Positions 16,075 to 38,680 of a DNA stretch of 64,000 nucleotides are shown one piece after another. The position numbers and the translations under genes are program-made. The DNA comes from Blautia luti (GTDB lineage Bacteria; Bacillota; Clostridia; Lachnospirales; Lachnospiraceae). Below the pieces are notes generated by a model that ran no database searches, was not told the origin of the DNA, and was given only the letters and a program-made list of their open reading frames with translations. The stretch covers positions 3,118,501 through 3,182,500 of the forward strand of contig NZ_AP028156.1 in the NCBI RefSeq assembly GCF_033096465.1, written 5' to 3'. Positions within the stretch are counted from its first letter, which is position 1, and the number at the start of each line of letters is the position of its first letter.

Positions 16075-17001
16075 TCAAATAAATTGCAAAATCCAGTATA
16101 CCAACGGAAGTGTCACAATGGAGCAGACTGTCGTCACCAGGATTCCGCCCATGGCGTAATCGCCGTCTGTGCCGTATGCGTTTGCCATCATAACCACGGA
16201 TGACATAACAGGCATTGCAGATGTGAGGGTCATGGTCATGCGGATCTCTGCAGAAATCGGAAGCAGACCCAGGAGCAGATAAAAGAGCACCGGGAAAATC
16301 AGCATTTTTATTGCTACGATTCCATAATAGTCCAGCTTGCAGATATACTTTCTCACATCCATGCAGGCAAATACTCCGCCAAGATAGATCATAGCCAGAG
16401 GAGTGGCTGTTGCTCCGATCTTCGAGAATGCAGTGTTCAGAATTTCCGGCAAACTGATTCCCGTCAGGATAAAAATTAGTGCTAATACAATGGCAACTGT
16501 GACAGGATTGATCAGTTTTTTGAAGTCAAAACTGCTATGTTCTGCTTTTGAAGTAAGTCTTACCCCAACAGTCCACAACATCAGCTGATCGATCATAGTA
16601 AATACAGAAATATAAAGCATTCCTCTTTCCGGGAAGATACTGGTTACAATAGGAATCCCCATAAATCCGATATTTCCAAATGCGCTCATGGCAGAATACA
16701 GCTGCTGATGGTCTCCCTGCAGATGAAACAGTTTCCCCGACAGGAAGCTTAATCCAAACAGACAGAGGTACATAAAGAACGCAATCCCAAGAATGGATAA
16801 GGAGTGGAAAAGCATCTCCTTATCTACTCCATTCACCGTGTTTGTAAAGATCATAACCGGCAATGCCAGCTTGATCACCAGTCTGGAAACGACTTCCATA
16901 TTCTCTCTGTTCAGCACCTTTGTGCGAATCAGAAGAATGCCTGCAAGAATATAGATCACAAACATTCCCAGCTGAGTGATCAGAATATTCAACGTATCCA
17001 T
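16075..17001 (-). CDS. AEC (auxin efflux carrier) family transporter
   Basis: 308 residues with ten predicted membrane helices in the AEC arrangement: an N-terminal GMFVIYILAGILLIRTK half, GNIGFMGIPIVTSIFPERG (the family-conserved segment near 105-125) and a C-terminal repeat with SAMPVMSSVVMMANAYGTD. Bacterial members export or exchange small organic acids such as malate. The ATG overlaps the stop of the GH3 beta-glucosidase by one base (TGATG), so the two are coupled. It may export an acid or take up a product of glucoside metabolism; the substrate is unknown. Confidence 0.87.
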   Translation of the reverse strand: MDTLNILITQLGMFVIYILAGILLIRTKVLNRENMEVVSRLVIKLALPVMIFTNTVNGVDKEMLFHSLSILGIAFFMYLCLFGLSFLSGKLFHLQGDHQQLYSAMSAFGNIGFMGIPIVTSIFPERGMLYISVFTMIDQLMLWTVGVRLTSKAEHSSFDFKKLINPVTVAIVLALIFILTGISLPEILNTAFSKIGATATPLAMIYLGGVFACMDVRKYICKLDYYGIVAIKMLIFPVLFYLLLGLLPISAEIRMTMTLTSAMPVMSSVVMMANAYGTDGDYAMGGILVTTVCSIVTLPLVYWILQFI

Positions 17002-19421
17002 CAGTCAATCTTCAGAATCACATTCAGGATCCTTCTTGCGCTGAGACGGATCTCCTCTTCTGTGATAAAGCCTTTCTCATATGCTTCTTTCACACGCTCC
17101 GGAAAACCTGCTGCCATTTTGATGTCATTTCCTGCTTTTGTCTCACGGTAATGTTCTCCGAATGTCCACCAGTCTGTGGTAACCAGTCCATCAAATCCCC
17201 ATTCATCCCGGAGAATACCTGTCAGGAGATCCTTATGCTCAGAAGTATGAACACCATTCAGCAGATTATAAGAAGACATGATGGTATATGGATGAGCCTC
17301 TTTTACGATGATCTCAAACTGTTTCAGATAGATCTCTCGGAGTGCTCTCTCGGATACTCTGGAGTCGGAATCCTTACGGTTTGTTTCTTTATTATTGGCT
17401 GCAAAATGCTTCACACTTGCTCCGATGTGCTGAGACTGGATGCCTCGTACCATAGCAGCTCCGGTCTTTCCTGCGAGATACGGATCTTCGGAATAGTACT
17501 CGAAGTTACGTCCGCAGAGCGGGCTTCTGTGGATGTTGCAGGCCGGTGTGAGCCAGATGCTGATGTTGTTTTCTTTTACTTCTTCTGCACCGGCTTTGCC
17601 CACTTTCTCTACCAGTTCTTCATCCCAGGTGCTGGCAAGAAGTGTAGCGCATGGCCATGCAGTTGTCTTTACTCCGCACCATGGACGGATACGAAGGCCT
17701 GCAGGTCCGTCGGCTGTCATAATATTCGGAACACCGTATTCCGGGATATTTCCCATGCCAAAGGTGTCTGCACATCCTGTGTTCGGCTGACCTCCCAGGA
17801 GATTGATACAGGCATCCAGACTCAGAAGATCCATGAACTCATCCAGAGTCATTTTTCCCTCTGCTACATCCTCGAAACGAACTCCTTTCGGATCAATAAA
17901 ATCAAGGAAGTCAATTCCCTTATGCATTCTTGTGTCAGGACACGGCAGACCGGACGCATATTTGTCCTGTCTGGGCAGTCCCTCTTCTTCTACATATTCA
18001 CGCTGTGGAAGTTCCTCATAGGAACCATCTGCAAGCATACGTTTCGGCAGATGATATGGTGCTGCTTTCTGACTTAACTGCTGGGTAACTGTGTCTTCTT
18101 TTACTTCATATGTAAAGTCAATCTTCGCTGCGTCTCTTACGTTTATACCGACGTAAATTACATATTCTCCTGCTTCCAGAACATAGGCAGATTTGCATAC
18201 TTTGCCCAGGTCATCGTAGGATGCCATCTGGTTTACCGGAAGTTTCAGGGTAAGGATCTGGCGTTCACCTGGCTGGAGAAGGCTTGTCTTTTTGAATGCT
18301 CCCAGTACTTTGGCTGGCTTGCCAAGTTTGCCTTGGGGTGCTCCGTAATAGAGCTGGATCACTTCTTTTCCGGCTGTTTTTCCGATGTTGGTTACTTCTG
18401 CCAGAACTGTGATCACACCGTTTTCTTCGGAAGCACCTGTTACTTTCCAATCAAAATCTGTGTAGGAAAGACCGTAACCGAAAGGATAATTTACCTTCTC
18501 TGCTGCTCCCGGAATCGTTTCGAAATAGCGGTATCCTACATAAATATCTTCTGTGTAATCTACATAAAATGCAGATTCATGGAAGTTCGCTGAGGACGGA
18601 TAATCTTCCAGATTTTTGGCATAAGTATCAGACAGTTTTCCAGATGGATTCACATCACCACACAGCACATCTGCTGTTGCAAGTCCGCCTTCCATACCAC
18701 CCTGCCATGCCATCAGGACTGACTGGATCTCGTCACAGTCTTTAAACCACTTGGTGTCTACGATACCGCCCACATTCATCACTACGATCACATGTGGGAA
18801 TGCTTTTTTTACGTTCTCCACCATGGCATTCTCTGCGTTTGTAAGGCAGAAATCGCCATCCTCGAAGATCTTCGCAGATAAGTCTGCCTGTTTCTTCTCA
18901 TCTCCATCCATGACATATCCATCCTGTGCAGCTTCACATTTTCGATCCCAGCCTTCCCCTGAGAAACGGCAGATCGTAATGACCGCAGTATCTGTGTATG
19001 CTCTTGCTTCCTGCAGAAGGTCTTCCGGAATCTCCGGTTCCACAGTCATGCCAGGTACTGCGCCTTCTGCGTACTGTTTCCGGATGTTTTCCTCATAATA
19101 TTTCGCAAGTTTATCGAAGACTTCTACTTTTCCCTCGTCCTCTTTGATCTTCATTCCTTCGTAAAGGTTACGGATATATTCCACAGTTACGTCACCGCTT
19201 CCGCCGCCACCTTTTACGTAATCTACTGTGCCCTTGCCAAAGAGTGCCACTTTCGTTCCTTTCCGGATCGGAAGCGTGTTTTTCTCGTTTTTCAGAAGGA
19301 CCATTCCTTCTCCTGCTGCCATTCTGGAAAGTGCAATGTGTTCTTTACTTCCTGTTACCTTTCTTCCATCTTCTCCCAGCGGAAGTACCGGTTGGTAAAA
19401 GCTTCTCTGCCATTTTCCCAT
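17001..19421 (-). CDS. GH3 beta-glucosidase with swapped domain order
   Basis: 806 residues. The order is unusual: the alpha/beta sandwich normally found C-terminally comes first (about 25-260, with LLKNEKNTLPI and GGVVDTKWFKD-type segments), then a fibronectin-III-like domain (about 320-420, with VTNIGKTAGKEVIQLYY), then the (beta/alpha)8 barrel at the end (about 500-806). The barrel carries KHFAANNKE and the nucleophile Asp750 in LVTTDWW. This permuted form is known from Ruminococcus and related gut enzymes. There is no signal peptide, so it acts on imported beta-glucosides. It is the middle gene of an operon, 18 bp after the Nudix gene and overlapping the AEC transporter. Confidence 0.93.
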   Translation of the reverse strand: MGKWQRSFYQPVLPLGEDGRKVTGSKEHIALSRMAAGEGMVLLKNEKNTLPIRKGTKVALFGKGTVDYVKGGGGSGDVTVEYIRNLYEGMKIKEDEGKVEVFDKLAKYYEENIRKQYAEGAVPGMTVEPEIPEDLLQEARAYTDTAVITICRFSGEGWDRKCEAAQDGYVMDGDEKKQADLSAKIFEDGDFCLTNAENAMVENVKKAFPHVIVVMNVGGIVDTKWFKDCDEIQSVLMAWQGGMEGGLATADVLCGDVNPSGKLSDTYAKNLEDYPSSANFHESAFYVDYTEDIYVGYRYFETIPGAAEKVNYPFGYGLSYTDFDWKVTGASEENGVITVLAEVTNIGKTAGKEVIQLYYGAPQGKLGKPAKVLGAFKKTSLLQPGERQILTLKLPVNQMASYDDLGKVCKSAYVLEAGEYVIYVGINVRDAAKIDFTYEVKEDTVTQQLSQKAAPYHLPKRMLADGSYEELPQREYVEEEGLPRQDKYASGLPCPDTRMHKGIDFLDFIDPKGVRFEDVAEGKMTLDEFMDLLSLDACINLLGGQPNTGCADTFGMGNIPEYGVPNIMTADGPAGLRIRPWCGVKTTAWPCATLLASTWDEELVEKVGKAGAEEVKENNISIWLTPACNIHRSPLCGRNFEYYSEDPYLAGKTGAAMVRGIQSQHIGASVKHFAANNKETNRKDSDSRVSERALREIYLKQFEIIVKEAHPYTIMSSYNLLNGVHTSEHKDLLTGILRDEWGFDGLVTTDWWTFGEHYRETKAGNDIKMAAGFPERVKEAYEKGFITEEEIRLSARRILNVILKID

Positions 19422-27194: not shown

Positions 27195-27225
27195 CAAAAA
27201 AGCTGCCATACGGCAGCTTTTTTTG
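27195..27225. terminator. Bidirectional terminator
   Basis: AAAAAAGCTGCC-ATAC-GGCAGCTTTTTTT, a strong short hairpin with T-runs on both strands, between two convergent genes. Confidence 0.92.
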
Positions 27226-27237
27226 TATTCTATATCT

Positions 27238-28548
27238 TTATTCAGCCATCTCCACTTCCAGCACATAGTCTACAGGATCCGGCAGTACAGGATCCGGACC
27301 AAGGTCAACAAATGCGATATCCGGATAATCGCTGTGTACCCATAAAGTAGAAATTGGCACTTCATGTCCGTCATCCAGGGCACGTACTTTCACAATCTTA
27401 TTCTTGTCAAATCCGATCAGCGGCAGTGGTCCTAATGTATTCTCATAAATATGGACATAATACTTGTTTCCATTTCTGGTGATACGTCCGTAATCCGGTT
27501 TCGGGATATCTGCTGCCGGAGCGCATCCATAGATACTGTCATGGTTCTTATCCATCCAGCGTCCGATTTCCGCCAGGATCGCGGAGGATTCTTTCGGGAA
27601 TTTGCCCTTTGCATCCGGACCTACGTTCAGGATCATGTTTCCGCCCTTGGAGACACATTCTACCAGCTTCTTGATCAGCATGGAAGCCGGTTTGTAGTAG
27701 TGGTCATTTGCACAGTATCCCCAGTTGTTGTTCATGGTGAAGCATGCTTCCCATACCATCGGATTCCCTTCTTTGTCACAGATTCCTTCCGGCGGGATAA
27801 TCTGTTCCGGGCTTATAAAATCGCCATGATACGGTGTCGGATCGCATTCATACAGAGATCCTCTTCCCTCACCACTGACTTCCAGACGGTTATCAATGAT
27901 GATTCCCGGCTGTAATCTGCGGACCATATCTATCAGTCTGGTTGCTCCCCATTTCTCGCCTCGCATATCGTCATAGGAAAAGTCAAACCACATAATATCG
28001 ATTTTTCCATAATTTGTGCAGACCTCTTCCACCTGATTGTACATATACTCTATATAACGAGAAAAATCTCTGTTTTCATTACTGCATTCCGGATGGTTTC
28101 TCATAGGATGGATGCGGTCTCCGTAATGAGGATAGTCCGGATGATGCCAGTCAAGTAAGGTGAAATACAGACCGACTTTCAGACCTTCTTCGCGAAGAGC
28201 TTCCACATATTCTTTGATTAGATCTCTTCCTGCAGGTGTATTGGTAACTTTATAATCTGTGTATTTACTGTCAAATAAGCAGAAACCATCATGGTGTTTC
28301 GCAGTCAGCACCACGTATTTCATACCTGCTGCCTTCGCCTCTTTTGCCCACTGTTTCGGGTCATAGTCTCTGGCATCAAACTCTTTCATAAACGGAAGAT
28401 ATTCTTCTTCCGGCATCTCTTCTGTACTGCGCACCCATTCTCCTCTTGCAGGTATGGAATATAATCCCCAATGGATAAACATTCCGAAACGGGCATCCTG
28501 ATACCATTTCATACGCTCTTCGTATTCTTTTCTGTTAAACTGATACAT
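27238..28548 (-). CDS. GH29 alpha-L-fucosidase, cytoplasmic
   Basis: 436 residues. GH29 motifs: RFGMFIHWGLYSIPARGEW (about 20-38), TAKHHDGFCLFDSKYTDY (82-99) and the nucleophile Asp189 in IMWFDFSYDD. The C-terminal third is a beta-sandwich (from about 345). No signal peptide and no carbohydrate-binding module, so it acts on imported fucosylated substrates. The acid/base residue of GH29 varies and was not assigned. It is the last gene of a co-directional run with a transglutaminase-like protein (18 bp upstream), cutC, a DeoR regulator and an ABC importer. Confidence 0.93.
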   Translation of the reverse strand: MYQFNRKEYEERMKWYQDARFGMFIHWGLYSIPARGEWVRSTEEMPEEEYLPFMKEFDARDYDPKQWAKEAKAAGMKYVVLTAKHHDGFCLFDSKYTDYKVTNTPAGRDLIKEYVEALREEGLKVGLYFTLLDWHHPDYPHYGDRIHPMRNHPECSNENRDFSRYIEYMYNQVEEVCTNYGKIDIMWFDFSYDDMRGEKWGATRLIDMVRRLQPGIIIDNRLEVSGEGRGSLYECDPTPYHGDFISPEQIIPPEGICDKEGNPMVWEACFTMNNNWGYCANDHYYKPASMLIKKLVECVSKGGNMILNVGPDAKGKFPKESSAILAEIGRWMDKNHDSIYGCAPAADIPKPDYGRITRNGNKYYVHIYENTLGPLPLIGFDKNKIVKVRALDDGHEVPISTLWVHSDYPDIAFVDLGPDPVLPDPVDYVLEVEMAE

Positions 28549-28566
28549 AGTCTCTATCTCCTGTAT

Positions 28567-31065
28567 TTACATCAATCTCAGCAGCATATCTCCGGTTCCT
28601 ACATTATAACCGCTTGTTGCATAAATTCCATTCAGGCTACCGCTTGTCACAATGATCAGCGGAAGTTTGTCCGGGTCTACATACATACGTCTTCCCAGAG
28701 TATTGGTAATCTCTGAGAAATCATCATAATAAATCTGTACATTTTTCATCTTTGCAAGGGTCTTCGCAAGAGTAGGTGTACCCAGTGCCTCCCTGCTTCT
28801 CACTACAAAGATGATTCTGTCTGCATATCCTGCGAAAGCTTCTTCCTGCTCCATCATCTCGTTTAAGATGTGCTCTGTCGGCTCTTCCTCTTCTTCCAGG
28901 AACATAAGAATATGTTTGCCATCTGCCGTTATTTCAGAAGCGTTGATTTCACTTCCATCCTCTTTTTTCAGAGAAAATTCCGGCATGGATATATTTTCCA
29001 GCATATCTTCCAGCTTCGCTTCTCTCAACTTCATTTCAACATCTTTCATCTCTCCGGCAGCGATTTCCATATGATACTCATACGCAAAAATATTTCCGTT
29101 TGGAAGTCTGTTGGATGTAATGATCCTGTATTCTCCCGATATCAACTGCAGTTTTAATAAACCATCCTCAAACAGCATATCACCCAGCTTCAATGATACA
29201 TATCTTCCATTTTCCAGTCTGGCAATACTCCAGTTCTGGAAATATTTCCAGACTGTATCATCTTCTGCGTGCAGAACCAGAGAACAATTCTTCTCTGTCT
29301 TTGCAAGAACAGATACAAACTTTCCATTGTCCATATATTCCATGGAACGGTCATTCGGATTTAAACGTGCCGGTATTCCCAGGGTTCTGGCAATTGCCAC
29401 AAATAAGATCTTCTTTGACAGGAAACTGCCGGTTTCTGTTTTCAGACATCCGGCCGGAGTAGTAATTACACTTGCACGCTCCTTATCCGGTACAGACATA
29501 ATGCCTGCATTGATCAACTCCCATATTTTCACCGGATTTTCTCTTAATTCTTTTTTCTCTTCTTTGGAGAAACGTTCTTTTATTTCTTTTCTGTATTTCT
29601 GCAGCACCTCATCATCCACTCTGGGATTCAGCACATAGGAAACAAATGTATCTTCTTTCATCATTCCATGATATGGAACTGCATATTCCAGATGTTCTTC
29701 CAGCACTTCTGCAGTACAGTCTATTCTGTCCTTTTCAGACAGAACATTCAGCAATTTTTCGCGGAAAGAAAATGCAGCAGCTTCTTCAATCCCCTGCACT
29801 TTCTTATTCAGAAATGCAGCACATTCCGGATTTGACCAGTTCTGAAGTTTTCTCTCTCTGTAGGCATTCGCCTCTGCCAGACGTTTATTTCCTATCTTTT
29901 TCTGTTCTGCTGTGGGCATATCTGTATTAACAGGAGCATCATGAGGTGCGATCATATCTACCGCATTCCAGGTTTCCTTTACAGTTTCGCCCTGATCCTG
30001 TGTTTTCAGGCAGATTTCACACACATCTTCGCCGGATGTATCCATTAATCTGTCAGCACTAAGCCACTGGCCGTCTCGACAGATACTTACAGAAATATGA
30101 AGACTGCCCAGACCCGTTGTCAGAACCGCCATTCCATTTTCATCGGTTTTCATTTCCGCTACAGGCGCATATTCTGAATAATTCATCACCTCAAAAGAAA
30201 CGGCTGCTCCGCTGACTGCTTTTCCCTCTTCATCTTTAACCTGAACTGAAATTTGTTTTGTAATGGCATATCTTTTCAGTTCATTCATCATGGTTACCAT
30301 ACCATCTTTTCCAATGATCTCTCCATCCGGTACCTTCGTATCAAATACCCTCGAGTGAACCATCATGGCCCTTGAAGAAGCATTGGTAAACCATCCCTTA
30401 TTCAAAATCTGTTCCGGTTCCCCTCCGCCGATAAAATACCACTGGCCGTCACTCCAGATTTCCACCCATGCATGATTATCATCACAATGAGACCATTTCG
30501 GCGCATATACCTGGCGTGAAGGTACTCCTGCACTTCTCAGCGCATTTACAGTAAGCACTGACTTCTCACCGCATCTCCCAATTCCTCTTCTGTACACAGA
30601 AATTGCTGATAAAGTACGGTCATCTGTACAGTGATAAGCAGACTCCTGTGCACACCAGTAGTTTATCTCCAGTGCTGCAGCCTTAATGTCCATCCCCCTG
30701 GTTCTCTCTGCAAGTTCACTGTAAAAGAATGTTCTGCAAGGTGCTATTTCCTCTTCATTAACTCTGTGAAACAGCACATAGTTCAAAAAAATATCCTCCG
30801 GCATATTCGCGATCCTTGGATTTTCTTTCCACAGATTCACTCCATTCACCGCATAATCCAGAAACACTTCAAATGGATAATTTCCGATATCACTGTATGG
30901 CATAAATGCATAAAGATATTTGCATGCCAAAGCCACTTCCTCATTGCACTCTGCCAGTTTCCGGTCTATGGCTTCAAAAACCCGGGGCAGGGATTTCGCC
31001 TGCTCCAGGTAACTTCTCTCAATTCGCTGTTTGTTTTCCTGTAAGAAAATTTTCGACTCTGCCAT
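28567..31065 (-). CDS. Large cytoplasmic transglutaminase-like protein with Ig-like and thioredoxin-like parts
   Basis: 832 residues. A transglutaminase-like core lies at about 90-240 with GRCGEKSVLTVNALRSAGVP (Cys165) and NHAWVEIW (His198). The usual third-residue segment (VDPT) is replaced by IGGGEPE, so an acidic residue such as Glu216 may substitute. A carboxypeptidase-regulatory-like beta domain follows at about 255-330 (VKDEEGKAVSGAAVSFEV). The C-terminal 120 residues (from about 705) look thioredoxin-like (HILMFLEEEEEP, QIYYDDFSEI, LPLIIVTSGS) but lack a CxxC. No signal peptide. Such proteins may act as amidases or peptidases. Its start overlaps the cutC stop (TAATG). Confidence 0.75.
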   Translation of the reverse strand: MAESKIFLQENKQRIERSYLEQAKSLPRVFEAIDRKLAECNEEVALACKYLYAFMPYSDIGNYPFEVFLDYAVNGVNLWKENPRIANMPEDIFLNYVLFHRVNEEEIAPCRTFFYSELAERTRGMDIKAAALEINYWCAQESAYHCTDDRTLSAISVYRRGIGRCGEKSVLTVNALRSAGVPSRQVYAPKWSHCDDNHAWVEIWSDGQWYFIGGGEPEQILNKGWFTNASSRAMMVHSRVFDTKVPDGEIIGKDGMVTMMNELKRYAITKQISVQVKDEEGKAVSGAAVSFEVMNYSEYAPVAEMKTDENGMAVLTTGLGSLHISVSICRDGQWLSADRLMDTSGEDVCEICLKTQDQGETVKETWNAVDMIAPHDAPVNTDMPTAEQKKIGNKRLAEANAYRERKLQNWSNPECAAFLNKKVQGIEEAAAFSFREKLLNVLSEKDRIDCTAEVLEEHLEYAVPYHGMMKEDTFVSYVLNPRVDDEVLQKYRKEIKERFSKEEKKELRENPVKIWELINAGIMSVPDKERASVITTPAGCLKTETGSFLSKKILFVAIARTLGIPARLNPNDRSMEYMDNGKFVSVLAKTEKNCSLVLHAEDDTVWKYFQNWSIARLENGRYVSLKLGDMLFEDGLLKLQLISGEYRIITSNRLPNGNIFAYEYHMEIAAGEMKDVEMKLREAKLEDMLENISMPEFSLKKEDGSEINASEITADGKHILMFLEEEEEPTEHILNEMMEQEEAFAGYADRIIFVVRSREALGTPTLAKTLAKMKNVQIYYDDFSEITNTLGRRMYVDPDKLPLIIVTSGSLNGIYATSGYNVGTGDMLLRLM

Positions 31066-31811
31066 TATAATTCCTCCAGAACTTTCTTCGCAGCACGGAT
31101 ATTCTCTTCATCCGTTCTCCACACTTCATATTCGCTCAGTAACGGAAGGCCCATATTTACGCCTTCTTTTCTGTATTTCATCTCACTGTCAATGGTTCTT
31201 TTGCCTGACATATGATAGGCTTTGACTCCTGTCATCGGATATAACTGGCGGATCACTTCCGCATTGACACCGCTTCCTGCCTGAATAGTAACACGTCCCC
31301 GGCTTCTTTCCTGAAGCTCTTTCAGAAGTTCTGCGCCCTGCAGACATACATTTCTCTGGCCTGAAGTAAGAATCGTATTGATTCCCAGCGAAATGGCCTG
31401 TTCCATTGTTTCTATCGGATCCACACAGACATCGAAAGCTCTGTGAAGGGTTACGGACATATCCCCAGCTGCCTCCATCAGTTCTTTCATCTGTTCCATA
31501 TGTAAGGTGCCGTCCGGTTTCAGGATTCCGATCACAACTCCTTCTGCTCCCATTTTCCTGAAATCCTGCACTGCACTTTTTATCATGGCAAATTCTGCAT
31601 CTGTATAGCAGAAATCCCCGAACCTGGGACGTATCAGTGCATGGATACGGATATCTGATCTTTTTCGTATTTCATCAAAAAGCCACGGTCCCGGAGTAGT
31701 ACCGCCGATGATCAGATTGCTGCAAAGTTCCAGCCGGCTCGCACCTCCCTGAACTGCTGCCATTGCAGATTCCACAGAATCCACACAAGTCTCCAATATG
31801 TACTCTTTCAC
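31065..31811 (-). CDS. cutC: CutC family protein
   Basis: 248 residues with the TIM-barrel CutC pattern: LETCVDSVESAMAAVQGGAS then RLELCSNLIIGGTTPG, IHALIRPRFGDFCYTD, LHRAFDVCVDP and LTSGQRNVCLQGAELL. CutC was first linked to copper tolerance, but its biochemical role is unsettled; in gut bacteria it often sits in sugar loci. Here it lies between a DeoR regulator and the transglutaminase-like gene, which favours a carbohydrate-related job over copper. Confidence 0.92.
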   Translation of the reverse strand: MKEYILETCVDSVESAMAAVQGGASRLELCSNLIIGGTTPGPWLFDEIRKRSDIRIHALIRPRFGDFCYTDAEFAMIKSAVQDFRKMGAEGVVIGILKPDGTLHMEQMKELMEAAGDMSVTLHRAFDVCVDPIETMEQAISLGINTILTSGQRNVCLQGAELLKELQERSRGRVTIQAGSGVNAEVIRQLYPMTGVKAYHMSGKRTIDSEMKYRKEGVNMGLPLLSEYEVWRTDEENIRAAKKVLEEL

Positions 31812-31883
31812 GTACTTTCCTCCATCTTTCGTCTGCTGCCATGCAGCTTTATTTCCAGCGGATATTCACAGTCCGCTTTTTAT

Positions 31884-32645
31884 TTATATCAGTCTTACCC
31901 CTGCGATCTCCAGTGCATGGACGATCGTTTCATCAGGGAACTCATCTGTCACGATTCCACTGATATCATCAAAATGTGCAAACTTATAAGAATCGTTAAA
32001 ATAAAATTTATCCCTCTCCATCACAACATATTTATGTCTGCTGCTCTGCAGGACAGACTTCTTCGTCAGTCCATCCTCTACCCCCAGAGTCGTCACTGTA
32101 CAGTCTGTCATATCCACACCGCAGCTTCCCATAAACGCCCGGTCAAAACTGTACTGCTTGATCACATCAATGGCAGCTACCCCCATAAATCCGTTAACTG
32201 TCCGATACATGGTACCCCCCGTACCAATAGCTGTGATCGCAGTGTTGGTTGCCAGGATCTGCAGGATATCGATCATGTTGCTCACTACCACCACGCGCAT
32301 ATCAGATGCCGCAAGCAGTTTCGCAAGTTCAATATTGGTCGTGGAAATATCCAGAAAGATCGTTTCATTGTTCTTTATCAATTTGAAGGCTTTGGCGGCA
32401 ATGGTCTTCTTTTTGTCCAGATGGTAATTTCTTCTGTCCACCACATCTCTTTCCAGGGGATAATCCTGAGAAAGGATGGCTCCACCGTAGGTTCGCTTCA
32501 GTTTCCCTGCATTTTCAAGAGTTTTCAGATCCTTGCGGATACAGTCCTCAGTAACCTGGAACTTCTCGCTCAGTTCCTTTACGCGGACTTTTCCCTTTTC
32601 CCGCAGGCATTTCTCGATTGCTCCTTGTCTCTCTTCTGTAAACAT
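31884..32645 (-). CDS. DeoR-family transcriptional regulator
   Basis: 253 residues. The N-terminal winged helix is typical of DeoR (VRVKELSEKFQVTEDCIRKD, then GKLKRTYGGAIL); the C-terminal domain is the DeoR sugar-phosphate sensor (NNETIFLDISTTNIELAKLL, DRAFMGSCGVDMTDCTVTT). It lies 50 bp after the ATPase genes of the ABC importer and 72 bp before cutC, on the same strand, so it probably controls the whole cluster in response to a phosphorylated sugar such as a fucose or N-acetylhexosamine derivative. Confidence 0.9.
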   Translation of the reverse strand: MFTEERQGAIEKCLREKGKVRVKELSEKFQVTEDCIRKDLKTLENAGKLKRTYGGAILSQDYPLERDVVDRRNYHLDKKKTIAAKAFKLIKNNETIFLDISTTNIELAKLLAASDMRVVVVSNMIDILQILATNTAITAIGTGGTMYRTVNGFMGVAAIDVIKQYSFDRAFMGSCGVDMTDCTVTTLGVEDGLTKKSVLQSSRHKYVVMERDKFYFNDSYKFAHFDDISGIVTDEFPDETIVHALEIAGVRLI

Positions 32646-32694
32646 GGAACCCCCTCTTTCCTCATCCTTTGGTAAAAATTTTCTGTACTATGTC

Positions 32695-33669
32695 TTATTC
32701 CGTAAATTCCGGATAATGACATTTTACAACATGACCCGATGCGATTTCAACAGGTGTCGGCACCTGTGTCTTACATTTCTCTGTGCAGTGTGGGCAGCGT
32801 GTATGGAACAGACAGCCGCTTGGCGGATTACTCGGGCTCGGAAGATCACCTTTCAGAGTGATACGCTCTTTCTTCACATCCGGATCCGGGATCGGAACTG
32901 CGGAGAGAAGTGCTCTTGTATATGGATGTCTCGGGTTTGCATACAGTTCTTTCTTCGGAGCTGTCTCCACGATCGTACCGAGATACATAACACCAATCCT
33001 GTCAGAAATCATCTCAACGACACTCAGGTCATGAGAAATGAACAGATAAGTAAGATTGAAATCTTTCTGTAACTGCTGCAGAAGATTTAATACCTGCGCC
33101 TGAATGGAAACATCAAGAGCGGATACCGGCTCATCTGCGATGATCAGCTTCGGCTGTACAGTCAGTGCTCTGGCGATTCCGATACGCTGACGCTGGCCGC
33201 CGGAGAATTCATGGGGATAACGTTCTCCGTGAGACGGGCTTAAACCTACGGTACCAAGAAGTTCATGTACTTTCTTAAGGCGCTCTCCTGCGCTCATATT
33301 TGTATGGATCAGAAGGGGCTCACCGATCAGATCCTGGACTTTCATTCTCGGGTTCAGGGAACCGTACGGATCCTGGAAAACCATCTGAATGTCAGAACGC
33401 AACGGACGCATTTCTTTCTCGGAAAGTTTGGAGATCTCTTTTCCCTCAAACCAGATCTCGCCGGAATCCGGTGTGATCAGATGATCAATCAGTTTACCTG
33501 TGGTGGATTTACCACATCCGGATTCTCCTACTAGAGAGAAAGTCTCGCCTGGATAGATGTCAAATGATACATCATTTACCGCATGGACAAATTTCTTCTT
33601 GCTGAACATTCCTCCGTTTGCCTGGAATGTTTTCTTCATATTCTTTACTGATAATAACGGCTCGCTCAC
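32695..33669 (-). CDS. Oligopeptide/dipeptide-type ABC transporter ATP-binding protein (OppF/DppF)
   Basis: 324 residues: Walker [12 protein letters not shown], signature FSGGQRQRIG, Walker B LIIADEPVSALD and the C-terminal oligopeptide-transporter extension with clustered cysteines (GCLFHTRCPHCTEKC), which in this family can hold a metal cluster. It is the second of two ATPases, 3 bp after OppD, and forms the heterodimer that powers the importer. Confidence 0.92.
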   Translation of the reverse strand: MSEPLLSVKNMKKTFQANGGMFSKKKFVHAVNDVSFDIYPGETFSLVGESGCGKSTTGKLIDHLITPDSGEIWFEGKEISKLSEKEMRPLRSDIQMVFQDPYGSLNPRMKVQDLIGEPLLIHTNMSAGERLKKVHELLGTVGLSPSHGERYPHEFSGGQRQRIGIARALTVQPKLIIADEPVSALDVSIQAQVLNLLQQLQKDFNLTYLFISHDLSVVEMISDRIGVMYLGTIVETAPKKELYANPRHPYTRALLSAVPIPDPDVKKERITLKGDLPSPSNPPSGCLFHTRCPHCTEKCKTQVPTPVEIASGHVVKCHYPEFTE

Positions 33670-33672
33670 AGG

Positions 33673-34662
33673 TTACGCCTCCTTTCCGGTTTTGTGCAGC
33701 AGATGACATCTGCATTTTCTGGTGCCTGCTTCGTTGATGTTCTCAAGCTCCGGCTCCTGCTGGTGGCAGATGTCCATCGCATATTTACATCTCGGTGCGA
33801 ATTTACATCCTTTTGGCATTACGGACAGATCCGGTACGCTTCCAGGAATGGATGGCAGGGATTCTACGCCGCTTCCAAGCTTCGGTACAGAACCTATCAG
33901 ACCCTGGGTATATGGATGCTTCGGGTCTGCGAACAGCTCATGTACAGGTGCTTCTTCTACGATTCGGCCTGCATACATAACAACGACTCTGGAACACATT
34001 TCCGCAACAACACCAAGGTCATGTGTGATCATCAGAATACCTGTGTTTTTCTTAGCTCTGATGTCCTCCATCAATTCCAGGATCTGTGCCTGAATAGTAA
34101 CGTCAAGGGCTGTAGTCGGCTCATCTGCGATGAGAAGTTCCGGCTCGCAGGACATTGCCATCGCGATCATAACACGCTGGCACATACCGCCGGAGAGCTG
34201 ATGGGGATAGCTCTTTAATGTCATATCCGGTTCAGGAATACCTACGGATTTCAGAACTTCAAATGCTCTGTTGTGTGCTTCTTCTTTTGAGAAATTATTG
34301 TGAAGCAGGATTGCTTCTGTCAGCTGTTTCTCAATTCTCATACATGGATTCAGAGAGTTCATAGGCTCCTGGAAGATCATGGCAACCTCACGGCCTCTGA
34401 TCTTTCTCATGCCTTTCTTGTCCTCTTTCAGGAGGTCCTTGCCGTTAAGCAGGATCTCACCGTTGGAAATCTTACTGTTACGTGCCAGAAGTTTCATAAT
34501 GGAAAGGGATGTTACTGATTTACCACATCCGGACTCTCCTACCAGACCAAGGATCTCACCCGGCTTAATTGAGAAGCTTACATTATTGACTGCTGTCACC
34601 CATGTTTTATCTCTTTTAAACTCCGTGCGGAGGTTCTTTACTTCTAATAATTTTTCTGCCAT
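33673..34662 (-). CDS. Oligopeptide/dipeptide-type ABC transporter ATP-binding protein (OppD/DppD)
   Basis: 329 residues: Walker [12 protein letters not shown], signature [10 protein letters not shown] (one unusual Cys in the usual MRQR), Walker [13 protein letters not shown], and the C-terminal cysteine-containing extension [15 protein letters not shown]. It pairs with the OppF-type ATPase and is coupled to it by a 3-bp gap. Confidence 0.92.
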
Positions 34663-34674
34663 GGTTTCTTCCTC

Positions 34675-35574
34675 CTAGTTCATCTTTGGATCCAGGGTAT
34701 CTCTGAGACCATCGCCCAGCAAGTTGAATGCCAGAACTGTAAGGAAGATCAGAATACCAGGGAACAGTACCATGTGAGGAGCTGTGTTCAGATAGTTACG
34801 TCCTGTGGAAAGCATGGCACCCCAGTCAGGCTCTGTAACATTTGCACCAAATCCCAGGAAACTTAAGGATGATGCTGCAAGGATCGCAGTACCTACACGC
34901 ATGGTAAAGTTAACGATCATAGACTGAATGGTACCAGGGAAAATGTGTACAAACAGGATTCGCATATTGGAACATCCCAGGGAGCGGGCAACCTCTACAT
35001 AAGGAGCCTGTTTTACGGAAATGGTCGCGCTTCGTATGATTCGTGCGAAAGACGGCACAGTAAATACCGCAACCGCGATCATAACGTTTACCATACCCTG
35101 TCCGATGATGGCAACGACTGCGATAGCCAGCAGGATATCAGGGAAAGCGAAAAGTACGTCACAGCATCTCATGATCAGGGAATCAATAATTCCGCCGTAG
35201 AAACCTGCGATCAGTCCAAGTACAACACCGATGGCTGTACCAATGATAGTAGCTGTCAGCGCACATGTCAGGGAAAGTCTGGTACCAACCATCAGACGGG
35301 AGAAAACGTCCTGTCCGTATTCATTGGTTCCCCAGATGTGGGCTGCGCTTGGTCCCTGCATCATAGCTGTGTAATCCGGTGCCTGTGGATCATACGGGAC
35401 TACATACGGTCCGATGATCGCCATCAGGATAATAAAAAGTATAAAGATCAGAGAAACCACTGCTGTTTTTCTCTTCATGAATTTCTTGACAAATTCTTTG
35501 AACTTGCTCTGTGCCTTAGGGAGTTCTTCGGCAGCAGCAAGGTTGATGTTTGATGTTGTGTTCTTATCTGCCAT
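34675..35574 (-). CDS. Oligopeptide/dipeptide-type ABC permease (OppC/DppC)
   Basis: 299 residues from the ATG at 35574, preferred because AAGGAGG lies nine bases before it and it leaves a 13-bp gap after the OppB-type gene; an ATG 30 bases upstream would overlap that gene. Five to six membrane helices and the cytoplasmic EAA loop (APYVEVARSLGCSNMRILFVH) that contacts the ATPase. The N-terminal helix is preceded by a lysine-rich segment, as usual in OppC. Confidence 0.92.
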   Translation of the reverse strand: MADKNTTSNINLAAAEELPKAQSKFKEFVKKFMKRKTAVVSLIFILFIILMAIIGPYVVPYDPQAPDYTAMMQGPSAAHIWGTNEYGQDVFSRLMVGTRLSLTCALTATIIGTAIGVVLGLIAGFYGGIIDSLIMRCCDVLFAFPDILLAIAVVAIIGQGMVNVMIAVAVFTVPSFARIIRSATISVKQAPYVEVARSLGCSNMRILFVHIFPGTIQSMIVNFTMRVGTAILAASSLSFLGFGANVTEPDWGAMLSTGRNYLNTAPHMVLFPGILIFLTVLAFNLLGDGLRDTLDPKMN

Positions 35575-35587
35575 CTTCTCTCCTCCT

Positions 35588-36508
35588 TTACTCATAACGT
35601 ACACGTGGGTTAATTACACCATAAAGAATATCTACGATCAGGTTGATCAGGATGTACTCTGTAGCAAAGAATAGAAGCAGTGCCTGTACAACCTTGTAAT
35701 CTCTGAACTGAATGGAATCTACCAGAAGACGTCCAAGTCCAGGAATAGAGAATACGGTCTCTGCCATAACTGATCCGGAAAGAAGACCACCGATCTGAAG
35801 TCCGGCTACTGTTACGATCTCGATCAGAGAATTCTTGAATGCATGGCGCATAACTACCAGTGATTCAGAGAGACCTTTGGCACGTGCTGTACGCACATAG
35901 TCCTCACGCATGGTCTCAAGCATGGAAGATCTGGAGAATCGGGCAAGGATCGCCATGATTCCGGCTCCCATTGTAAGTGATGGAAGAATATAGCTCTTCC
36001 AGGTCTCCAGACCACTGGTCGGAAGCCATCCCAGGCTTACTGAAAAAAGCTGGATCAATTCCAGACCTAACCAGAAACTTGGAACAGATATACCTGCAAT
36101 TGCTATGAGCATGCCTACATAGTCAAGAATCCTGCCATGGAATACGGCTGCAATGATACCGATGGCGATACCGATGATCGCTGCCCAGATCATAGATGAA
36201 AATGTCAGCATAATCGTTGGTTTCAGTCTTGGTGCGATTGTTTCTACTACTGTTTTACCGTTTTTGATTGAGTCTCCCAGATCTCCTGTGAAAAGACCTT
36301 TCATGTATTTACCATACTGCACCAGTAATGGTTCATCCAGTCCCAGCTGTTCACGTACAACTGCTACATCTTCCTTTGTTGCATCCTGACCGGCAATCAT
36401 TCGTGCCGGATCACCAGGAATCATATGGATAAACATAAATACTACGAATGAGATAACCAGAAGCAGCGGAATTGTGCTTACTAAACGTTTACCTAAATAA
36501 CGTCCCAT
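35588..36508 (-). CDS. Oligopeptide/dipeptide-type ABC permease (OppB/DppB)
   Basis: 306 residues, six membrane helices: N-terminal RLVSTIPLLLVISFVVFMFI, the MIPGDPARMIAG loop typical of OppB/DppB, and the EAA loop DYVRTARAKGLSESLVVMRH. It forms the membrane channel with the OppC-type protein. It is 206 bp after the substrate-binding gene, with a strong hairpin in between. Confidence 0.92.
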   Translation of the reverse strand: MGRYLGKRLVSTIPLLLVISFVVFMFIHMIPGDPARMIAGQDATKEDVAVVREQLGLDEPLLVQYGKYMKGLFTGDLGDSIKNGKTVVETIAPRLKPTIMLTFSSMIWAAIIGIAIGIIAAVFHGRILDYVGMLIAIAGISVPSFWLGLELIQLFSVSLGWLPTSGLETWKSYILPSLTMGAGIMAILARFSRSSMLETMREDYVRTARAKGLSESLVVMRHAFKNSLIEIVTVAGLQIGGLLSGSVMAETVFSIPGLGRLLVDSIQFRDYKVVQALLLFFATEYILINLIVDILYGVINPRVRYE

Positions 36509-36619
36509 ATTTTTCCTCCTTAATTAATGATTCGTAACTGTTCCGTCCCTTCACAGTGGAATCCTGGACTGCTGAATAGTTACTGTTTTCTAAAAATTCA
36601 ATTGATTTTGCTTTATATT

Positions 36620-36657
36620 CAGAGAACTGCCATAATAATGCTTATGGCAGTTCTCCG
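36620..36657 (-). promoter_or_regulatory. Intercistronic hairpin between binding-protein and permease genes
   Basis: GAGAACTGCCATAA pairs with TTATGGCAGTTCTC (14 bp, 6-base loop) without a following T-run on the minus strand. Such hairpins protect the upstream message or partly terminate, giving more binding protein than permease. Confidence 0.7.
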
Positions 36658-36714
36658 TTTTGAACATCATTGTTATTATTGCTCTATATTATAAATATAC
36701 ACTTGACTTCAGAC

Positions 36715-38325
36715 TTACTGTGCTAAAGTTGCATTTTCGAAGTTGAATGCTCCGTCCGGAGATACATATACGCCAGACAGATAAGATTTTGTAGAGTAGA
36801 TGATCTGGTCATTGCCAAGGAACAGCCATGGGCAAGCTTCCCATGCGATCTTCTGAGCATCGCCATAGTATTTAGCCTGTTCTTCTTCGTTAGCTGTTGC
36901 AAGACCTTCATCCATATCTTTATCAAAGTCAGCATCGTTGAAGTATGCTGTGTTTGCACTTGTTGGAGGGCACATTGTGCTGTAAAGCAGGGAACGTAAA
37001 GAACCATCCATTGTAAAGTCAGATGCAGACCAGTTTACATACCACATGTTGATCTCAGCTTCTTCTTTGTCAACATAAATCTTATCGCTTACAGTTGCAG
37101 GCTCCATCGGCTGAACGTCAACTTCGATACCAATCTGAGCAAGCTGCTGCTGGATAAATGTCATACCTTTGATTTCCTGTGTTGTGTTATCGCCCCACAG
37201 AGTAAGTTTGAATCCGTCTTCATATCCGGCTTCTTTCATAAGTTCTTTTGCTTTATCTACATCATAGGTATAAGCTTCCTGCTCTTCGTATCCGCCGATG
37301 ATAGATGGAACTACAGATGTAGCAGGTTTTCCGTATCCGGAATACATTAACTGGATGTATGCATCTTTATCGATCGCATAGTTCATAGCCTGACGTACTT
37401 TTACGTCAGAAAGCTGCTCCAGATCCATGTTCAGAGTTACATATCTCATGATGTTGGAATCTGTTGTAAGGATATTTACATCGTCAGTTCCTTTGATCGC
37501 TTCGATCTGGTCAGATGGTGTAGGATAGATGAAATCAGCCTCACCTGTCTGAAGCATAGCTGTACGTGCACCTGCTTCCGGAACTTCTTTGATCGTTACA
37601 GTGTCAACGCCCGGTTTCTCTCCCCAGTAATCTTCGTTGCGTTCGAAGCTTGTATGGTCGCCTTCTTCCCATTCTGTACATACATATGGGCCAGTTCCGC
37701 ATGGATGGTTCATGATGTCATTGCCATACTCTTCAAGAGCTGCAGGGCTGATGATACAGAACTGTGTCAGACGGTTGATAAATGGTGCCCATGCCTGTGT
37801 CAGTTTGATCACCAGTGTGTAATCATCAGGAGTCTCAATGCTGTCTACACGAGGAGTTTCAGATCCATCTGCATTGGATACAATAAATGTTCTTCTCTGA
37901 CGAAGGTTATTGTCTTTGTCAACTACACGATCGTAGTTTGCTTTAACTGCTGCTGCATTGAAGTCTGTTCCGTCCTGGAACTTAACACCCTGACGAAGTT
38001 TGAAAGTGTATGTAAGGGAGTCATCAGAAACTTCCCATGATTCAGCAAGTTTGCCAACCAGTGTCTGGTTCTCATCAAAAGAAACCAGTGTCTCATATAC
38101 ACCACGTGTAGCAGAGATAGCACTTGTATCCGGAATGTTTGCCGGGTCCATGGAGCTTACGCTTCCTTCGATGGCGATTACCAGATCATTGTCGGATGAT
38201 TTGGCATCTTCATTTGTGGCTTTGAGGATGTAGCCGTCATCATCTGCTGCAAATGCTGTAGCTGACATGGAAACTGTCATTGCGCCAGCAAGTACTGCTG
38301 CCAGAACTTTTTTGTACATTTTCAT
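36715..38325 (-). CDS. Peptide-type extracellular solute-binding protein (SBP family 5), without lipobox
   Basis: 536 residues. Family-5 landmarks: AESWEVSDDSLTYTFKLRQG then VKFQDGTDF, PCGTGPYVCTEWEEGDH and QAMNYAIDKDAY. Features such as RVDSIETPDDYTLVIKL recall GsiB/DppA-type proteins, but family 5 also binds oligosaccharides and nickel. The signal peptide ends MSATAFA/ADDD, a signal-peptidase-I site, and LAGAM stands where a lipobox LAGC would be. A Gram-positive binding protein without a lipid anchor is unusual. Strong promoter at 38520-38548; first gene of the importer operon. Confidence 0.92.
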   Translation of the reverse strand: MKMYKKVLAAVLAGAMTVSMSATAFAADDDGYILKATNEDAKSSDNDLVIAIEGSVSSMDPANIPDTSAISATRGVYETLVSFDENQTLVGKLAESWEVSDDSLTYTFKLRQGVKFQDGTDFNAAAVKANYDRVVDKDNNLRQRRTFIVSNADGSETPRVDSIETPDDYTLVIKLTQAWAPFINRLTQFCIISPAALEEYGNDIMNHPCGTGPYVCTEWEEGDHTSFERNEDYWGEKPGVDTVTIKEVPEAGARTAMLQTGEADFIYPTPSDQIEAIKGTDDVNILTTDSNIMRYVTLNMDLEQLSDVKVRQAMNYAIDKDAYIQLMYSGYGKPATSVVPSIIGGYEEQEAYTYDVDKAKELMKEAGYEDGFKLTLWGDNTTQEIKGMTFIQQQLAQIGIEVDVQPMEPATVSDKIYVDKEEAEINMWYVNWSASDFTMDGSLRSLLYSTMCPPTSANTAYFNDADFDKDMDEGLATANEEEQAKYYGDAQKIAWEACPWLFLGNDQIIYSTKSYLSGVYVSPDGAFNFENATLAQ

Positions 38326-38519
38326 AGTTTTCTCTCCTTTTCTTTTTGTACGTTGTTGATTAGTTACAATATTGCAGTTAATTTTGGGTACAAAAAAAGC
38401 GTTTTTATTTTTTGCTCCTTTGCAATGTGTTCGATCGGATGTTATGATCCGTTCAGAGTTACGTTTACTTACATGCCCCTTTGCATATTCATAAAAACAC
38501 TTCGTCTTAACTTGACTTC

Positions 38520-38548
38520 AGTATAGCAGTATGCTGTCCTGTTGTCAA
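38520..38548 (-). promoter_or_regulatory. Promoter of the ABC importer operon
   Basis: TTGACA (38543-38548) and TATACT (38520-38525) on the minus strand with a 17-bp spacer, about 195 bp before the binding-protein start. The long leader between them (38326-38519) shows no recognised riboswitch. Confidence 0.75.
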
Positions 38549-38589
38549 TTGTTTTATCGTATTTTGTCTTATTTTGTAGGTAATTGACC

Positions 38590-38637
38590 AAAATTCCCCA
38601 CGAAAATTAGTATTAATCACTAATTTCTGTGGGGAAT
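38590..38637 (-). terminator. Hairpin terminator after mscS
   Basis: ATTCCCCAC/GTGGGGAAT with ATTAGT/ACTAAT inside; the minus strand continues TTTTGG. The T-run is short, so termination may be partial. Confidence 0.65.
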
Positions 38638-38680
38638 CCAGGAAAATTTAAGATAATTTGGTATTGTTTTGTATTGTTTC

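Follow-up and report, generated by a model that had tools for sequence, protein, structure and literature searches.

Comparison with described systems

The closest described counterpart of the gene cluster presented here is the alf-2 cluster of Lacticaseibacillus casei, which PMC6960285 describes as a pathway for Fuc-alpha-1,6-GlcNAc-Asn (GlcNAc, N-acetylglucosamine) comprising a permease, a GH29 fucosidase, a glycosylasparaginase, a peptidase and a ROK kinase, with the amide chemistry performed by AsnA2. Our cluster lies in a stretch of 64,000 nucleotides of the Blautia luti genome (NZ_AP028156.1, positions 3,118,501 to 3,182,500; hereafter the window) and encodes a solute-binding protein (SBP), OppB, OppC, OppD, OppF, a DeoR-family regulator, CutC, a transglutaminase-fold protein (TG) and a GH29 alpha-L-fucosidase (Table 1). 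With a probability of roughly 55%, the operon salvages small alpha-L-fucosylated N-glycopeptide remnants, i.e. Fuc-GlcNAc-Asn carrying a few further residues; we infer the substrate, what TG and CutC catalyse and how DeoR is involved. The first-pass annotation of the window, made from the sequence alone, had proposed the uptake and breakdown of a fucosylated glycopeptide or oligosaccharide by one system and stated that no earlier description of a system so composed was known to it. The latter statement is superseded by alf-2 as a functional counterpart, in the terms of PMC6960285. As to the former, cytoplasmic glycopeptide breakdown fits best and a single unit is likely, with a plain oligosaccharide kept as a rival.

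As far as alf-2 is set out in that source (PMC6960285), both systems combine a cytoplasmic GH29, a GlcNAc-Asn amidase (a candidate one in the window) and a dedicated transporter and regulator. In contrast, the MFS permease AlfH is not in the window cluster, where an Opp-type ABC importer takes its place. The autoprocessed AsnA2 (PF01112) is replaced by the TG-fold protein in a genome with neither PF01112 nor PF06089 matches, the regulator is of the DeoR rather than the GntR type, and CutC is additional. The peptidase and ROK genes of alf-2 have counterparts in sister clusters and none in the window's own operon. The simplest reading would be the alf-2 pathway run by an amidase of the TG fold, with import through an Opp system and with CutC added.

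In the proposed pathway, what the trimming of glycans and the digestion of proteins leave behind in the gut would be imported as glycopeptides by the GsiB-like binding protein and OppBCDF. Cytoplasmic peptidases (M17 or M28 in sister clusters) would shorten the peptide, and GH29 would take off the fucose. The TG-fold amidase may then cut the GlcNAc-Asn amide to an aspartyl product and 1-amino-GlcNAc, CutC would act on the amino-sugar product of this cut, most likely the glycosylamine, and DeoR may sense a derived sugar phosphate. Among the direct observations (gene content, co-direction, conservation, co-occurrence and fusion of CutC and TG, other amidases beside CutC in matching clusters), the two most telling, both out of reach of the first-pass annotation, are the genes for peptidases and amino-sugar enzymes that related clusters contain and the joint occurrence of TG and CutC.

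Conservation of the cluster and co-occurrence of CutC with TG

A scan of species genomes for TG confirmed at least 589 stretches, of which the best 80 loci were kept. The TG open reading frame was called in 79 of the 80; 47 loci had enough flank (TG starting past the first 9 kb, with over 3 kb behind it) and the other 33 were dropped. Profiles of neighbour families were made from the reading frames of these loci and named through Pfam scans of representatives, and neighbours were counted if they shared the strand of TG and lay no more than 10 kb away. CutC was found near TG in 33 of the 47 loci, with none nearby in 14. An importer was present in 28 (peptide type 17, sugar type 12), an M17 or M28 peptidase in 24, DeoR in 19 and GH29 in 17, followed by ROK (6), NagA (4) and NagB-like proteins (3). 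Peptide importer, GH29, CutC and TG occurred all together in 8/47 loci. CutC and TG hence form a conserved core, and importer and GH29 are recurrent yet exchangeable. Judged by conservation of gene order, the check named in the first-pass annotation, the outcome is mixed. Genes for YitT-family membrane proteins, unexpected in a glycopeptide pathway, stand by TG, M17 or CutC in seven loci (L046, L083, L088, L095, L100, L102 and L210; Pfam on L088 and L210).

In 200 genomes sampled from the family of the window, each representing a different genus, TG (by profile, E up to 1e-30) was detected in 22 and CutC in 51 genomes; 50 of the latter exceeded the cut-off, and three weak matches all came from genomes without TG. 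A CutC match was present in 22/22 genomes with TG vs 29/178 without (Fisher p 1.4e-15, with no correction for relatedness or for the size of the genomes). Among these 22 CutC matches two seem to be disrupted, one lying in two pieces (G434) and one interrupted by a stop (G444, where the TG match is a fragment as well). The two genes were less than 5 kb apart in 11 of the 22 pairs, on different contigs in nine and distant on one contig in two. In one genome (G365, locus L159) CutC and TG form a single reading frame of 1050 amino acids; this fusion gene lies shortly downstream of genes for a BrxC/BrxD-type ATPase and a DEAD helicase.

Other amidases beside CutC

Amidases unrelated to TG also accompany CutC. 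Glycosylasparaginase-type proteins (PF01112; AGA) were found in 4/200 genomes of the family sample, all four with CutC (p 0.0039). In G409 and G487 the order is AGA, M20 peptidase and CutC, with PF01112 about 1.2 kb from CutC; in G332 and G477 PF01112 is on a contig other than that of CutC. G477 also has TG and, since both are likewise present in G023 and G043, TG and PF01112 are not strict alternatives. In a sample of the phylum, 26 genomes had a CutC match and the 24 above the cut-off were screened for PF01112. Six carried it, five of them at 0.14-4.6 kb from CutC and four of these on the same strand (opposite in G243). On three Hymenobacter plasmids AGA overlaps CutC in 3/3, near GH92, a family of N-glycan mannosidases, and variously ROK, GH18, NagB and GH2. 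In S. meliloti, a run of amidase, ROK and CutC genes lies beside nagA. In L. sakei, cutC (LSA1440) and asnA2 (LSA1693) are distant by locus tag. PF06089 was considered as a general CutC partner and discarded, being near CutC in only one of the 13 genomes that carry it (61 screened).

Two clusters headed by asparaginase II (PF06089) stand out, each with the window's combination of importer, CutC and GH29 along with M17 and ROK. A plasmid of A. pseudofirmus carries the order asparaginase_II, SBP, OppBCDF, M17, CutC, GH29 and ROK, followed by a divergent DeoR gene and fucose catabolism genes, and genome G080 carries asparaginase_II, SBP, OppBCDF, M17, CutC, ROK and GH29. A search of G080 yielded no TG gene, and none is annotated in the plasmid stretch examined. 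The GH29 proteins are 57% (G080) and 38% (plasmid) identical to that of the window, and the plasmid binding protein 43%.

In a tree of 28 CutC proteins, the AGA-linked and asparaginase-linked sequences of Bacilli formed one group of six, the AGA-linked Hymenobacter sequences another of three, and a third group held seven of the eight TG-linked proteins, the eighth (L061) standing apart on a long branch. Because amidase-linked CutC proteins fall in separate groups of the tree, the link between CutC and amidases is not one inherited arrangement.

The TG-fold protein

TG consists of a TG domain (Cys165/His198), an Ig-like domain (residues ~270-355; match to 3e8v of B. fragilis), a further TG-like domain (97.9% probability by profile comparison) without Cys and His, and a thioredoxin-like end (~690-832). 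The latter (window 28567-28998, residues 690-832) is free of cysteine and displays an EPTEH..NE motif that is invariant or nearly so. The whole-protein model had a mean pLDDT of 91.7. Since the thioredoxin-like C-terminus dominated the list of the whole-protein fold search, the TG domain was also modelled alone (pLDDT 88.1). Over 50 aligned relatives Cys165, His198, R164, G166, E167, D195, D196 and N197 are invariant. In locus pair L013 and L024 (genome G020) TG genes stand in tandem, one with an internal stop.

The eukaryotic cytosolic peptide:N-glycanase (PNGase; Png1/NGLY1) shares with TG the fold, the Cys-His pair and the motifs GRCGE, HxWxE and CE, the last three being common to 2f4m and 1x3w. 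Cys165 and His198 align with the catalytic Cys/His of PNGase, and the TG-domain profile finds 2f4m (E 0.0014) and 1x3w (E 0.011) among the TG domains of the PDB. TG differs from PNGase by its degenerate second TG domain, its Ig-like and thioredoxin-like domains and its setting in a bacterial operon. The comparison with PNGase has two further limits: Gly213 occupies, in 50/50 aligned proteins, the position that we take to be that of the triad Asp in PNGase, and the fold search with the isolated domain returned the TG superfamily without singling out PNGase, the sequence match being likewise not specific for it. TG may nonetheless be regarded as a candidate Cys-His amidase of the PNGase kind. 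Of the peptide or amide part, on which the transglutaminase-like enzyme acts according to the first-pass suggestion, the amide is the best fit. Among the matches listed in the open-access literature, none reported a TG-fold PNGase from gut bacteria.

The fucosidase and the importer

The best match of GH29 in the PDB was 6gn6 (E 5e-170), which we take to be isoenzyme 1 of P. thiaminolyticus, aLfuk1. An N-terminal signal peptide was not seen by eye in the translation, consistent with a cytoplasmic enzyme. The window genome has two fucose-isomerase-type matches. For GH29 cluster 3, the group with aLfuk1, the results section of PMC11189522 gives two members broad alpha-1,2/6 activity, its discussion reports no significant activity on natural fucosylated substrates, and two members make 6FN and 3FN by transfucosylation. 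These data leave room for a glycoamino-acid substrate and demonstrate none. Two strains of B. wexlerae grew little on 2'-fucosyllactose (2'-FL) and well on fucose and lactose, as reported in PMC9201481. Since another strain of this species, MSK.20.46 (locus L026), carries the operon, 2'-FL is argued against as its substrate.

The glutathione importer GsiABCD and the dipeptide importer DppABCDF likewise combine a family-5 SBP with an OppBCDF-type set. YliB (1uqw) was the best PDB match of the binding protein (E 1e-103) and GsiB its best NCBIfam model. In contrast to GsiABCD, the importer of the window remains under the equivalog cut-offs of GsiB (406/594 bits), GsiC (404.5/463) and GsiD (373.9/484). 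The N-terminus of the binding protein is, by eye, a Sec-like signal ending in AFA without a lipobox cysteine. This cysteine is present in some relatives and absent from others, and its lack is unusual for a Gram-positive importer.

The role of CutC

CutC is a widespread protein, present also in humans, and has long been classed under copper. The window protein matches human CUTC (3iwp) over its full length (302.9 bits) and belongs to the same family as CUTC and the E. coli protein, from which it differs by its genetic tie to a glycopeptide-type cluster. Sixteen residues were invariant across the 28 CutC proteins, including E7, R26, E28, R61, H123 and H200 and no Cys, a set that would suit an enzyme better than a copper chaperone. 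No gene named for copper other than cutC was annotated among its examined plasmid neighbours. A 2024 review denies CUTC the roles of transporter, classic chaperone and buffer, and states that the evidence still points to copper homeostasis by a mode of involvement yet to be defined (PMC11083455).

The gene company of CutC suggests a task in sugar salvage. As its partners would free GlcNAc-glycosylamine, an activity on glycosylamines or amino sugars is a concrete hypothesis. In its most specific version, CutC including human CUTC would be a TIM-barrel enzyme for the 1-amino-GlcNAc freed by the N-glycan/Asn cut and not a copper protein, and bacteria would pair it with any of several unrelated amidases (TG-fold PNGase-like protein, glycosylasparaginase, asparaginase II, amidase) in glycopeptide-salvage operons; we regard this version as tentative, with the odds against it. 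Nothing among the matches listed in the open-access literature linked CutC to N-glycan or glycosylamine chemistry. A predicted VirK network of Xanthomonas is described as holding CutC together with an asparaginase connected with the degradation of N-glycans (PMC5700972), and the authors of the L. casei study took the breakdown of 1-amino-GlcNAc to be non-enzymatic (PMC6960285).

Several neighbourhoods speak against a narrow role. CutC also accompanies ROK, NagA, SIS, GH20 or MurQ genes where no amidase is evident, and its surroundings are unrelated in plasmid records of Parabacteroides, Cetobacterium, Entomospira and two Enterococcus. In the family genomes with CutC and without TG (19/29 examined) the neighbours were mixed; 55 of 59 were scanned and included two each of PF01112, M20 and MupG. 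In the phylum (20/24 loci, 56/64 neighbours scanned), five amidohydrolases, four ROK, four PF01112 and two NamZ proteins were counted. Among 18 plasmid regions, picked for annotation and variety from 66 matching records, amino-sugar genes were near CutC in 11, only a BadF-type ATPase in two and neither in five. The mixed and unrelated neighbourhoods lead us to discard the strong form in which CutC is dedicated to N-glycan chemistry. As CutC also occurs beside amino-sugar genes without an amidase and in unrelated surroundings, a broader function in amino-sugar metabolism deserves at least as much credit as one confined to glycosylamines.

Alternative explanations

The properties of TG that depart from PNGase, namely the glycine at the triad position and the lack of a PNGase-specific match in fold or sequence, would also agree with a role in trimming the peptide, as a peptidase or an enzyme that modifies peptides, the GlcNAc-Asn bond being cut by an unrecognised enzyme elsewhere. 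This is unlikely, considering that M17 or M28 peptidases already accompany TG in 24 of the 47 loci and that an asparaginase or glycosylasparaginase stands in where clusters lack TG. Import of peptide-free fucosylated oligosaccharides, such as sugars of milk or mucin, with TG and CutC serving other ends, appears rather improbable. Some family-5 binding proteins do take sugars and a sugar-type importer is near TG in 12 loci, against which stand the same peptidases, the GsiB/Opp-like nature of the window importer and the poor growth of the two B. wexlerae strains on 2'-FL (PMC9201481).

We give slightly less credit to muropeptide recycling, by which GlcNAc/MurNAc-peptides would be imported and TG would act on the muropeptides as a peptidase or amidase. 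Murein peptides can be substrates of TG-fold and Opp proteins, and some genomes have NamZ, MupG or MurQ genes close to CutC. To our knowledge, however, muropeptides do not contain fucose, and the presence of GH29 in 17 TG loci and in both asparaginase_II clusters, as well as the GH92 near the AGA-CutC pairs of Hymenobacter, is at odds with such a substrate. Very improbable is that CutC is a copper protein incidental to the cluster, as its historical annotation and the copper-sensitivity phenotypes covered by PMC11083455 would have it; its occurrence in every family genome with TG, the fusion, the amidase linkage in separate parts of the CutC tree and the 16 invariant residues, with E, R and H and without Cys, all argue otherwise.

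Organisation of the cluster

All nine reading frames are on the reverse strand, from 38325 down to 27238, and gave Pfam matches (SBP_bac_5, BPD_transp_1 twice, ABC_tran with oligo_HPY twice, DeoR, CutC, Transglut_core and Alpha_L_fucos) well over the cut-offs. In gene order, the intergenic gaps are 206, -17, 12, 3, 49, 72, -1 and 18 bp, one base being common to the CutC stop and the TG start. The co-directional arrangement, the gaps below 75 bp or overlaps except behind the binding-protein gene, and the flanking strong promoter and terminator had been described in the first-pass annotation and are borne out by the measured positions, the Pfam matches and, as predictions, the two tabulated sites. 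The predicted promoter is among the two best-scoring such sites of the region, where promoter-like sites as a class are not above chance (29 vs 24.6 expected in shuffles); terminator-like sites number 18 vs 9.3 expected. The nine genes are likely one transcription unit. Their association is more than chance, because the whole genome of 3.74 Mb has no PF01120 match but this GH29, and it stands 18 bp from TG.

Table 1 Features of the nine-gene cluster and its flanks, with positions in the window
Feature	Position	Strand	Evidence
Promoter-like site, sigma-70-type	38520..38548	-	11/12 consensus, 17-nt spacer, TG dinucleotide before second hexamer; predicted
Solute-binding protein, family 5, GsiB-like	36715..38325	-	PF00496, E 4.8e-102
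Perfect 14-bp inverted repeat, no U-run	36622..36655	-	in 206-bp gap between SBP and OppB genes
OppB-type permease	35588..36508	-	PF00528, PF19300
OppC-type permease	34675..35604	-	PF00528, PF12911
OppD-type ATPase	33673..34662	-	PF00005, PF08352
OppF-type ATPase	32695..33669	-	PF00005, PF08352; over NCBIfam NF008453 cut-off
DeoR-family regulator	31884..32645	-	best NCBIfam models GlpR and AgaR, all under cut-off
CutC	31065..31811	-	PF03932, E 1.9e-66, 223.8 bits vs cut-off 23.3
TG-fold protein, 832 aa	28567..31065	-	PF01841, E 1.6e-21
GH29 alpha-L-fucosidase	27238..28548	-	PF01120, E 6e-93, 312.5 bits vs cut-off 25.2
Intrinsic terminator-like stem, bidirectional	27196..27223	.	12-pair stem, U-run on both strands

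The 221-nt stretch around the 14-bp inverted repeat folds better than shuffled sequences (z -3.4), and B. wexlerae L026 has the hairpin in the corresponding position. Because no U-run follows it and it is kept in L026, a function in mRNA stability appears more plausible than one as a terminator; such a hairpin would allow an excess of the binding protein. A search for DeoR operator repeats returned short repeats only. Between the upstream MscS gene and the cluster promoter lies a 30-nt inverted repeat (38582-38648, 77% complementary). The DNA identity between the window and L026 is mostly 90-97% in the importer and GH29 genes and just 69-81% in DeoR-CutC-TG (28567-32645); owing to this lower identity, the latter appears as if it had been exchanged as a block. 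Elsewhere in the window, the C-terminal domain of a GH3 protein (17001-19421) precedes the N-terminal one.

Implications

New above all is that CutC is linked in genomes to enzymes expected to set GlcNAc-glycosylamine free, and new as well is the TG-fold amidase candidate, which possibly represents a bacterial family of PNGase-like amidases with relatives encoded in at least 589 stretches of species genomes. The cluster provides a concrete biochemical lead for CutC: if true, a CutC enzyme for 1-amino-GlcNAc would close a gap, perhaps also one in human cells. For the gut Firmicutes, the remnants of host N-glycoproteins may be an under-described food.

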